Positions 15,676 to 18,870 of a DNA stretch of 64,000 nt are shown in pieces. The stretch is from Macrophomina tecta (taxonomy: Eukaryota; Ascomycota; Dothideomycetes; Botryosphaeriales; Botryosphaeriaceae). How positions within the stretch are numbered: the stretch's first letter is position 1; every line of letters starts with the position of its first letter. The position numbers were made by a program, and so were the translations under genes. The notes below the pieces were generated by a model. That model was not told where the DNA came from. It saw nothing but the letters and a program-made list of their open reading frames with translations, and did not search any database. The stretch is taken from assembly GCA_024180945.1 (NCBI GenBank), contig JAKSGN010000019.1, forward strand, positions 61,671 to 125,670. The letters run 5' to 3'.

Positions 15676-15724
15676 ATTAACCCAACTGGGATTCCAACCC
15701 AGGTTGTAACAGTGAAAGAGTTAA
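15676..15724 (-). pseudogene. displaced 3' half of a tRNA-Glu
   Basis: Carries the CTTTCAC anticodon loop region of trnE, a T-arm CTGGG/CCCAG and an acceptor strand TTGGGTT. There is no 5' half next to it. The TTGGGTT strand pairs over 7 positions with GACCTAA of the 5' fragment at 16913-16939, on the other side of the intact trnE and a GIY-YIG relic. Confidence 0.8.
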
Positions 15725-16004
15725 AAAAAAATTTTTAATATACTCTAATGTAAAACTAAAAATATATCTATATAGTCGCCCCACTTATACCCCCCCCCCT
15801 CGTGATAATAGTGAATAACGTCCATTAATATTTATACTCCTTTTCCGCATATGCCTTCTGCTTCAATTTAAATAATAATAAATTACAAATAATTACTAAA
15901 AAAAAAGAAGGGAATTAGGAAAACACTATATAAAAAATTAATATTTTTTTTACTATTCCTTCAGAAATGACCCTTAAGAAATCCCTTCAGGAATTTACCA
16001 CAGG

Positions 16005-16320
16005 GTAATAGTATATATACCTTTACAAGGTTTATTGTTTCTTATACATTTAGCAACATAAGAATAATCAGATTCTATGTATTCAGATGCTTCATTTATT
16101 TTTCTTTATATATATAAAGAAAGAAAGATCAGTAGAAAACTCTTTTGAAATACCTGTATTAGTAACTATTACAGCTTTAGATTGTGCATTATTAGCAGAT
16201 ATTTTTAATTTAGTATCCTCACTAAGAATACGACCAGAGGCAGCTTTACGCATATTCAATTTTGAAGATTCATTTTTACTACCAGACAGTTTAGTAATAA
16301 TATAAATACCCCCTTTAAAG
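16005..16320 (-). pseudogene. C-terminal fragment of a GIY-YIG endonuclease
   Basis: Encodes NUMOD-type segments (MRKAASGRILSEDTKLKISA, then SKAVIVTNTG, then SYVAKCIRNNKPCKG) with a frameshifted, AT-rich middle. No GIY-YIG catalytic part remains. It ends against a GC-rich cluster at about 16365-16440. Position between intact trnE and the displaced trnE half suggests it is the remnant of the element that split trnE. Confidence 0.75.
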
Positions 16321-16364
16321 GTTTTCTTTATCTATACTTTTATTTAGAGAAGAAATAGTCTCGG

Positions 16365-16440
16365 ACGTCGTCTACGACGACTGAGACCTAGGGGAACCCT
16401 CCCCGCCACGCTTAGCGTGGCGGGGCGAGGTCTCTCCTTG
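16365..16440. repeat. GC-rich palindromic cluster
   Basis: Contains two hairpins (CGTCGTCTACGACG and CCCCGCCACGC/GCGTGGCGGGG) between the GIY-YIG fragment and the partial trnH copy. Confidence 0.7.
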
Positions 16441-16475
16441 GAAAAATTAAGAGATTCCGCAGCTTCAGTTAAAAA

Positions 16476-16529
16476 GGGGAACTTACTGTGCCACATACAG
16501 TTGTTCTGCCTATTGAACTACACCTTCCT
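16476..16529 (-). pseudogene. partial tRNA-His copy (5' two thirds)
   Basis: Nearly identical to trnH from the D-arm through the anticodon arm (ACTGT-ATGTGGC-ACAGT), then stops before the T-arm. Not a functional tRNA by itself. Confidence 0.85.
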
Positions 16530-16795
16530 ATATATTTTTTATTCGCTACGCAATAAAAATATTAATGATTCAAAATAAAATATTGTGAATTTGAAACATA
16601 AAGTATTAATTAACTAATTAATACTTATCACATAACCTATATATTATAAATTATATATATTACATCATCATCATTATTAAATTATTATAAATTATTTACA
16701 AAAAACTATAATTTTAAATAGTAAAAATACTACAACTAGCCCTGGCGAGTTTGTACCTTAAAAAATATTTTTTTAATAATAATTAAACGTATATT

Positions 16796-16868
16796 AACCC
16801 TACAGGGATTCGAACCCTGGATCTAACAGTGAAAGAGTTATGACTTAACCAGACTTGTCGACAGGGTC
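16796..16868 (-). tRNA. trnE: tRNA-Glu (UUC)
   Basis: Anticodon loop CTTTCAC gives TTC. Acceptor GACCCTG/TAGGGTT, T-arm CAGGG/CCCTG. Flanked by displaced 5' and 3' halves of a second trnE. Confidence 0.9.
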
Positions 16869-16912
16869 TTATTATAATACTATATATTTAAATATATTGA
16901 ATTAAATAATAA

Positions 16913-16939
16913 ACCCGGAAACCTCTTGACGATTAGGTC
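16913..16939 (-). pseudogene. displaced 5' fragment of a tRNA-Glu
   Basis: GACCTAA followed by TCGTCAAGAGGTT, an acceptor strand plus D-arm of tRNA-Glu type, with nothing after it. Its acceptor strand pairs with the 3' half at 15676-15724 better than with the intact trnE. Confidence 0.65.
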
Positions 16940-16981
16940 TATTATAAACATAATATAAAAATGTTAAATTATATAATATAT

Positions 16982-17028
16982 ATCCGAAAAACGACTTGAA
17001 CGTTTACGACGATAAATCAGCGAATCTG
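16982..17028 (-). pseudogene. displaced 3' half of a tRNA-Leu(UAA)
   Basis: Variable-arm remnant, T-arm AAACG/CGTTT and acceptor strand TTCGGAT, similar to trnL(UAA) at 18673-18753 but with a different acceptor. It pairs with ATCCGAG of the 5' fragment at 18846-18870. Confidence 0.8.
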
Positions 17029-17223
17029 CATAAAAAAAAAGAACTTTTTTTAATATGTAATATCTTGATGTATTACATAAAGGGCTTTAAACCTTTTATT
17101 TCCCCTACTCTCATACTTTATATATACGCAGAAAGCAGTAGGTAGCAGCCAAGGCAAAAAAGATATATTTACTCCACTTACGATACCACCCGGGGAGGGG
17201 TGGTATTCTATATTTAGAAAAGG

Positions 17224-18459
17224 TTATGCACTTTTTCTAAATATTGTATGACCTTTACATGGTTTATTATTTTTAATACAACTACGTACATAAGACTCAT
17301 CCACGCTTAAATGTCTAGCGGCAGATGATATTGAAGGAAACTCTTGAGTTTCCATATTCAAATTATTAGTCACAAGTACAGCCTTTGAATTAGTACTATT
17401 ATCTGATAATTTTTGTAAAGTTTCCGTAGAATGTTTACGACCTAAATTAGCTTTTCTAAGAAGCTCTTTTGAAATCTCGCTATGTTTTATACCAGATTCT
17501 CTAGAGTAGAGGGCTTCTCCATAAGCCGTACTGCTGATTATATCTAAATATGAAACATTAGCTTTATGTATAATAAACCCTTTACCTAAATAAAATTTAA
17601 CCTCATCTAAGGATTTAGAAATATAACTATGATGTATACCTATATACTCAGCAGCCTTTCTGGTAGATGTAAATGTTAAAATTTCACCCGTAGCTTCATT
17701 AATTACAATTGTAGCTTGGGCTTTCAAACTTGATGTAGCTAATTTTAATCTAGTTTCTTCTGAGATTACACGGCCTATATGACTTTTTTTCATCAGTTCT
17801 TTTGAAGCTTCTGAATGTTTAAATCCTACTAATGACCCTGCTTTTTTTAAAATATTATATTCAGGGTTAAGTAAATCAAGATAATGTTGCTCTTTTTTAA
17901 TTAAAACAACGGGATCACAATATTCTAAGATTTTTAACTCAAAACTATTATACCCGTATTTAATCAACGCTTTGTAAATCATACTATTATTTTTCTTAAT
18001 TTCTCTTTCTAAGTACGAGATATTATAATAATTTCTAAATCTTTTAGATAAATCAATAGCAGACCCTACGTAACTTTTTCCTGATGCTATGTGTGTTCAC
18101 TGATAAATACCAGTTTTTTCTTTATTATCTTTTAATACCGATAATTTTAAAGTATCAGCATTAGAGTAGACAACAATTGGAGTACTAAATATTACAATAT
18201 CTGAGTTCTGCACTAACTCAATAAATGAAGCCAAAAACATATCACTATTTGATAAATAAGATAAGAAAGATAAACAGTATTTTAAACCTAATAAAGGAAT
18301 ATATATAGAACCTAAAAATGTAGAAAATACACTAACAAATAAAATAATTGTAAAAGATAATAATATTATAATAGCAACATGAGAATATAATGTAGATTTA
18401 TCACGTCTATTGGCAACGGCATTAGACATTAATAATAAAATTAAAGAAGTAAATAACAT
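17224..18459 (-). CDS. GIY-YIG endonuclease with a nad2-derived N-terminus
   Basis: 411-residue ORF, continuous under code 4. The first ~35 residues ([20 protein letters not shown]...) are a copy of the nad2 N-terminus, and the DNA upstream copies the end of trnR. Then come a membrane-like stretch, a GIY-YIG domain (GIYQWTHIASGKSYVGS, about residues 125-141; [14 protein letters not shown]), NUMOD3 repeats (KHSEASKELMKKSHIGR) and two NUMOD1/IENR-like modules at the C-terminus. It lies between trnL(UAA) and the displaced trnL 3' half, so it probably arrived there as a cassette after residing next to or in nad2. It appears intact. Confidence 0.85.
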
Positions 18460-18487
18460 TTTATTAGCCAAGAATCGAACTTGGATT
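18358..18487 (-). repeat. partial copy of the trnR 3' end and nad2 5' end
   Basis: Clearly similar to 5798-5930: the tRNA-Arg T-arm region followed by the first ~35 codons of nad2. It overlaps the start of the GIY-YIG ORF. Confidence 0.88.
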
Positions 18488-18672
18488 ATTTTCCCAGAAC
18501 TAATAATCATAAATTTAGGCTTTATATTAATAATATAATATAAAAGAATTGTTAAAAATTATAATTAATATAATTAATTAATATTGATCATTTATCATTA
18601 ATAAAATAAAAAGATATGTTGTTTTTTACAAAATTACTACATATATTTATACAATATATAATAAAGAATATT

Positions 18673-18753
18673 ATCCAAAGAACGACTTGAACGTTCACGA
18701 GAGTATCTCAGAAAAGCTTAAATTTTCCCTGTCTACCATTCCAGCACTTGGAT
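18673..18753 (-). tRNA. trnL(uaa): tRNA-Leu (UAA)
   Basis: Type II tRNA. Anticodon arm GAAAA-TTTAAGC-TTTTC gives TAA; T-arm GAACG/CGTTC; acceptor ATCCAAG with TTTGGAT. Flanked by displaced 5' and 3' pieces of another copy. Confidence 0.92.
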
Positions 18754-18845
18754 TATAAATTAGATATATTTAATATATATCAGATTATTAAAAAGATAAT
18801 TAGTTAATCGATATAAAAATGTTATTATTTGTTTATGAATATTAG

Positions 18846-18870
18846 TATCTACCAATTCCAGCACTCGGAT
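18846..18870 (-). pseudogene. displaced 5' fragment of a tRNA-Leu(UAA)
   Basis: Acceptor ATCCGAG and D-arm TGCTGGAATTGGTAGA, matching trnL(UAA) apart from the acceptor. The acceptor matches the displaced 3' half at 16982 and not the intact gene. Confidence 0.8.

Follow-up and report, generated by a model that had tools for sequence, protein, structure and literature searches.

Endonuclease-associated inserts that probably replaced two split tRNA genes in the mitochondrial DNA of Macrophomina tecta

The tRNA genes trnL(UAA) and trnE, neighbours in an M-L-E-A cluster of the mitochondrial DNA (mtDNA) of Macrophomina tecta, are each cut in two by an insert. In both inserts the order of the pieces is the same: a complete, diverged copy of the interrupted tRNA gene, a piece of another gene, and an endonuclease. 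We consider it probable that these endonuclease-associated inserts broke the native trnL(UAA) and trnE between the D arm and the anticodon and at the same time supplied a working copy of the same tRNA. The stretch analysed here, referred to as the window, is 64,000 nt long. It runs from 61671 to 125670 on the contig JAKSGN010000019.1, which measures 125,670 bp and belongs to an assembly of 54 Mb in 37 contigs. With its tRNAs, rRNAs, introns and nad genes, this contig is the mitochondrial genome of a fungus. Coordinates below are window positions unless a contig is named.

All pieces of both loci lie on the minus strand. At the trnL(UAA) locus, the displaced 5' part of the native gene (18846-18870) is separated from the displaced 3' part (16982-17027) by an insert of 1,818 bp (17028-18845), and the acceptor strand of the 3' part pairs at seven of seven positions with 18864-18870. 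Within the insert lies an intact, diverged trnL(UAA) copy (18673-18753) that ARAGORN calls with fully paired acceptor and T stems, though no Rfam tRNA model matches it at E<=10. Likewise, the trnL of the fungal contig L022 (8124-8208) is called by ARAGORN and is absent from the Rfam matches of its record (positions converted). The intact copy is followed by a copy of the trnR 3' end and the nad2 5' end (18355-18486; 91.7% identical over 133 bp to 5789-5921), which is in frame with the endonuclease. The latter is an open reading frame (ORF; code 4) at 17224-18459 that starts at the copied nad2 ATG at 18459 and is assigned by Pfam to the homing endonucleases of the GIY-YIG/NUMOD kind.

The trnE locus repeats this arrangement with a shorter insert of 1,196 bp (15724-16919), which lies between a displaced 5' part (16920-16939) and a displaced 3' part (15677-15723). 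The 3' part is 87.5% identical to the intact trnE over 48 nt, and its acceptor strand pairs at seven of seven positions with 16933-16939. The intact, diverged trnE copy (16795-16868) is called by ARAGORN and reaches 49.5 bits with Rfam. It is followed by a copy of the trnH leader and 5' part (16477-16538; 96.8% identical over 62 bp to 13818-13879, with 46 nt identical) and by a decayed endonuclease tail (16019-16286), in which tblastn detects only the NUMOD region, matching residues 339-382 and 394-420 of the ORF in the trnL element. An earlier sequence-only reading of this DNA had described the trnL and trnE pieces in this order, and both the sequence and ARAGORN bear it out. Its 5' boundary for trnL (18846-18870) stands, while its other three boundaries are revised to those given above. 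What it called a GIY-YIG relic in trnE is indeed an endonuclease remnant, of which only the NUMOD tail (residues 339-420) is left. It recognised the tRNA copy and the endonuclease of each insert and missed the trnR 3'/nad2 5' and trnH 5' pieces.

In the nuclear genome, a 56-bp copy of mtDNA on contig C31 (L007, 1501-1556) spans the junction between the insert and the trnE 3' part with 55 of 56 positions identical. The presence of this junction in the copy, with a single change, lends it support. No empty site was found in the C31 copy, which at 56 bp is too short to show one. The copy is embedded in a very AT-rich stretch. When the 26 tRNAs of the mtDNA were searched against the whole molecule (E<=0.05), the halves, the trnR and trnH pieces and a second trnR were recovered, and beyond these only short or weak matches. 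The short ones span 18-21 nt and mostly cover arms common to different tRNAs; the weak one pairs 42 nt with trnH at 76% identity (E=0.02). The two full trnR(UCU) genes are 97.3% identical and lie at contig positions 55522-55594 (L017) and window positions 5894-5966.

That each pair of displaced halves was formerly one tRNA is strongly supported by the base pairing between them. The displaced acceptor strands pair at all seven positions both in trnL (ATCCGAG with TTCGGAT) and in trnE (GACCTAA with TTGGGTT), as do the acceptors of the intact copies (ATCCAAG with TTTGGAT in trnL). Complete pairing arises by chance in 0.14% of 200,000 random heptamer pairs drawn from the same mtDNA. The tRNA set comprises 25 tRNAs called by ARAGORN (code 4) and trnT, which was found with Rfam and named by its anticodon. 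When the acceptor ends of these 26 tRNAs were mixed, 7/7 pairing occurred in 2 of 648 combinations; with the same extraction of acceptors, 22 of the 26 pair fully with their own ends. Ends swapped between displaced and intact copies pair at 7, 6, 6 and 6 of 7 positions. In the acceptor and T stems, six pairs differ between the displaced and the intact copies, and all six are standard pairs in both. Four of the six are double changes (acceptor pair 5 and T-stem pair 1 in trnL, acceptor pair 6 and T-stem pair 2 in trnE). Because all variable pairs are kept paired in both copies, each copy must have evolved as a working tRNA, the displaced parts jointly. The sequence-only reading had proposed the former unity of the halves and had named pairing no better than between random tRNA fragments as evidence against it. 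The proposal holds up against random heptamers and mixed tRNA ends, and is further upheld by the compensatory pairs and by the outgroup probes described next.

Two further fungal contigs, both of them distant, supplied an unsplit trnL(UAA) and were used as outgroups: L041, which lies inside a bacterial metagenome-assembled genome, and L022, a contig from IMG/VR. The ends of their unsplit tRNAs served as probes, for which the best ungapped place across the whole mtDNA was determined; both L022 trnL probes and the L041 trnE 3' probe were judged by the listed best places only. The L041 trnL 5' probe has its single best place at the displaced half (23/25; 1 of 251,292 positions). The same holds for the L041 trnL 3' probe (25/30; 1 of 251,282), which scores 23/30 at the intact copy, and for the L041 trnE 5' probe (16/20; 1 of 251,302), so that the displaced half is best for three of the four L041 ends. 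In addition, the unsplit trnL of L022 carries the displaced-type G-C at acceptor pair 5. In a hand alignment of trnL and the trnE 5' part, 20 sites differ between displaced and intact copies; here the outgroups agree with the displaced copy at seven, with the intact copy at two and with neither at one, and ten are undecided.

The position of the halves in the gene order points the same way. ARAGORN and Rfam together place them in the minus-strand cluster rnl-M-T-M-L(UAA)-E-A-F-L-Q-H-M, where the native spacers, with the inserts disregarded, measure 42 bp between L and E and about 31 bp between E and the following trnA. M-L-E-A can be taken as a known native order because trnE precedes trnA in eight of the nine Dothideomycetes tabulated in PMC6221350, and trnL precedes trnE in three of the nine. 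We regard the halves as native because a compact L-E-A cluster need then have received no more than two inserts. The reverse, with intact copies native and halves foreign, was rejected, as it needs three separate insertions in cluster order.

The ORF of the trnL element exceeds the Pfam cut-offs for GIY-YIG, NUMOD3, I-HmuI_NUMOD-like and NUMOD1 (GIY-YIG, PF01541, 31.8 bits against a cut-off of 22.6). A partial homologue occurs in a metagenome (97% identical, 252 aa, 59% of the query). The ORF opens with about 34 nad2-derived codons, and the copied nad2 piece provides its in-frame start. Given that all six changed codons are nonsynonymous, this piece was not kept as Nad2. The list of GIY-YIG-like intervals across the whole mtDNA counts 17, including the native nad2, which was caught via the copied piece; it is a lower bound and misses the ORF at 53412-54734. 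At least six of the other 16 intervals are preceded by the leader or a 5' piece of a different gene (cox1, nad4, nad6, trnY, trnH and trnR/nad2). The pieces and leaders of nad4, nad6, trnY and cox1 lie at window positions 33145-33853, 36082-36161, 41406-41480 and 40130-40197 and at contig positions 16637-16922 (L013), with the assignments to cox1 and nad6 being presumptive. The trnY leader copy flanks its GIY-YIG ORF both upstream and downstream. The endonucleases may capture start signals.

The window also contains a parallel in a protein gene. The C-terminus of nad1 is joined to a LAGLIDADG endonuclease in the ORF at 52120-50645, and a second, displaced nad1 C-terminus follows this ORF (50505-50152, 80.5%; 49771-49679, 96.8%). 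By its sequence arrangement, the region 49679-52120 is a case of the layout described for mitochondrial mORF hybrids of protein genes.

Taken together, the order and nesting of the pieces, the short native spacers outside the inserts, the intact endonuclease ORF and the nad1 parallel support the view that the inserts replaced the genes they broke. We infer that this involved cutting by the endonuclease, mobility of the insert and a foreign origin of the spare tRNAs. In such a scenario, a recipient mtDNA would be cut by the endonuclease in its native tRNA gene and repaired with a segment copied from a diverged mtDNA, encountered through hyphal fusion or in a hybrid, that had a working tRNA near the endonuclease. 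The spare tRNA copy does lie upstream of the endonuclease gene or its remnant in both inserts. Of the numerous mtDNA copies, those lacking a working tRNA would be lost. A whole tRNA is supplied perhaps because tRNA ends must pair, which would leave a foreign 3' end alone unfit. The outcome would probably amount to a tRNA form of mORF gene replacement, analogous to a natural cleave-and-rescue element.

Several observations weigh against this replacement. No end sequences common to the trnL and trnE inserts were found. Both inserts contain unrelated gene pieces (trnR/nad2 and trnH), and the trnE insert retains only the endonuclease tail without the GIY-YIG domain. The displaced trnL 5' end also pairs at all seven positions with the 3' end of the intact trnL, by way of a G-U pair. 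Not all outgroup probes favour the displaced halves: the L041 trnE 3' probe is best placed at the intact copy (17/24), the L022 trnL 3' probe ties with 27/29 at the displaced and at the intact copy, and the L022 trnE 5' probe scores 14/20 at the displaced half and equally at two other places. The intact trnE aligns poorly with the displaced trnE 5' fragment, and chance windows score higher. At T-stem pair 2 of trnE, both outgroups go with the intact copy and differ from the displaced 3' part, and the trnE T-loop base of the outgroups likewise matches the intact copy. Finally, trnE sits elsewhere, before M and L, in L022 and L041.

The halves are most likely relics, to judge from what they have lost. 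Relative to the outgroups, the trnL parts lack about 10-11 nt between them, comprising the end of the D arm, the 5' side of the anticodon stem and letters of the anticodon, and the trnE parts lack about 6 nt. A group I or group II intron core was not found in 13000-20200 at E<=5, while the control for this search gave five intron matches at the gathering score elsewhere in the window. Folding the joined halves with a tRNA model, as the sequence-only reading had suggested, yielded no tRNA either: ARAGORN calls both intact copies and finds none in the N-filled joined halves, where the N filler itself may hinder. Moreover, the T loop of the displaced trnE is without C56, which is near-universal in tRNAs. 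The absent nucleotides, the intron core that was not found, the missing ARAGORN call and the loss of C56 led us to regard the halves as relics and not as exons or split tRNAs. It is for the first three of these reasons that a tRNA intron or a split tRNA was rejected. The acceptors do still pair across the insert, as an intron or a tRNA joined from its halves would predict; with intact copies of both tRNAs present as well, we consider such an explanation hardly credible.

The most serious competitor is patchwork repair of a break, in which the filler came from coexisting or foreign mtDNA, from trnR/nad2 and from trnH, and the tRNA copy and the endonuclease were never a mobile unit. The endonuclease would then be further filler or the cause of the break, and the tRNA copy would have been selected for. 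The trnR/nad2 and trnH pieces within the inserts, the similar gene 5' pieces ahead of other GIY-YIG loci in this mtDNA and the nucleotides lost at the break speak for it. Against it stand two adjoining tRNAs with the same order and a matching tRNA copy each time, and the nad1 case, which follows the same logic. We therefore hold patchwork repair to be possible and clearly the less likely account. The anatomy fits an insert that supplies the replacement, as the sequence-only reading had proposed in noting that the elements seem to replace the gene they break, which would make the insertion harmless, but the gene pieces and the trnE tail also allow patchwork repair. A simpler origin would be duplication of each tRNA within the lineage, after which an endonuclease gene interrupted one copy and this copy decayed, with neither foreign DNA nor cargo involved. 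Such duplication does occur, as the second full copy of trnR(UCU) illustrates (97.3% identical), and GIY-YIG genes are common in this mtDNA. However, had an insertion hit one of two tandem copies, the complete copy would not be found within the split gene, and the four compensatory double changes, with changes in both of the compared copies, require that two working genes existed apart for a long time. Tandem duplication followed by insertion was rejected on the order of the pieces, and we consider a duplication origin improbable. Lastly, the loci could be an artefact of an assembly in which two mitochondrial haplotypes were merged. This seems very improbable, given that the mtDNA forms one contig of 125,670 bp in the 37-contig assembly and that the nuclear copy on C31 holds the insert/trnE 3' junction.

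Replacement of the broken tRNA genes by their inserts has its nearest counterpart in the mORF hybrids, reported for atp6 of Allomyces and for atp6, atp9 (with a GIY-YIG endonuclease), cox2 and nad3 of Glomus (PMC3630166). As the passages on these genes describe them, a gene is interrupted, a replacement lies 5' of a free endonuclease ORF, the displaced native 3' part comes after it, and the copies are diverged (PMC3630166). They differ in that the native 5' part is retained and only the 3' part is exchanged, so that a hybrid protein gene results, whereas the tRNA inserts supply a complete tRNA and both native parts are discarded. Here, too, the endonuclease ORF lies outside an intron, complete in trnL and as a tail in trnE, and a displaced native 3' part lies downstream of it (16982-17027 and 15677-15723). 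A native 5' part fused with an inserted 3' part into one hybrid gene was not found at either tRNA locus; instead, a separate full copy follows after a spacer. As the hybrid gene is one of the defining features, we do not file the tRNA inserts as mORF members.

The closest GIY-YIG enzyme with a tie to tRNA genes is, to our knowledge, SegB of phage T4. It is intron-less and linked to tRNA genes and their inheritance, but it belongs to a phage and lies between tRNA genes, and in the sections of PMC2988022 and PMC13096335 that deal with it, splitting or replacement of a tRNA is not described. In the mtDNA of Chrysoporthe and Cryphonectria, a duplicate of the nad3 5' part is joined to a GIY-YIG ORF and a nad2 5' duplicate occurs with a neighbouring tRNA, according to the parts of PMC4894602 devoted to them. 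Both resemble our loci in the duplicated gene 5' part, which in the nad3 case is joined to a GIY-YIG ORF, while a split tRNA with an internal replacement is not described in those parts of PMC4894602. Searches of the open-access literature listed no recognised account of an endonuclease element that replaces a tRNA gene.

Better known kinds of elements in tRNA genes differ further. Group I introns occur in tRNA genes, including bacterial and phage cases, and similarly place an endonuclease gene between two tRNA parts. Here, in contrast, an intron core was not found, a complete tRNA lies inside, and no exact junction restores the tRNA, as about 10-11 and 6 nt are gone. Islands that integrate into tRNA genes carry an integrase and, on integrating, rebuild the end of the tRNA they target. 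At our two loci the break is in the middle of the gene, both parts are broken, and the sole long insert ORF is a GIY-YIG endonuclease. Engineered cleave-and-rescue drives combine a nuclease against an essential gene with a spare copy in one block, as the tRNA inserts do with nuclease and tRNA copy; for the inserts, unlike these engineered drives, it is only supposed that they cut, that they drive and that the spare copy is resistant.

Relatives for comparison were sought in several collections. Among the 120 of 7,916 hits listed for nad4, a sequence of Macrophomina phaseolina is the best homologue (94% over 88%). The record behind L019, a nad4 relative, has four tRNA matches. Contigs L020, L021 and L023 matched the trnL pattern with other tRNA sets and were left out of the comparison, and further trnL and trnA patterns returned L022 again and nothing else. 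In IMG/VR, searches with the trnL-element ORF and two tRNA patterns found no relative. A 73-aa stretch used as a pattern, presumably part of cox3, gave 80 matches and a nad4 pattern against GTDB contigs gave 28, none of which was confirmed in either case. Elsewhere in the window, beyond the nad1 region, there are three long unassigned ORFs (152, 494 and 572 aa; 58507-63422), and dispersed GC-rich repeats that are about 90% alike occur at 19662-19719, 58964-59018 and 56122-56173.

In a wider and rather tentative interpretation, which we think more likely wrong than right, such inserts would form a natural class of cleave-and-rescue elements. Mitochondrial GIY-YIG elements of this class would target essential tRNA genes and carry a complete, cleavage-resistant spare of the very tRNA that they destroy, so that insertion is neutral, the spare becomes the sole working gene and the element is locked in. 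A form of replacement that exchanges a whole tRNA gene would show a route by which a selfish element enters a gene that is intolerant of interruption, and it could explain abrupt changes in the sequence of mitochondrial tRNAs. It would also provide a natural counterpart of the engineered cleave-and-rescue drives. Endonuclease-driven replacement is known so far for mitochondrial protein genes, and the swap of a whole tRNA gene would be a new form of it.

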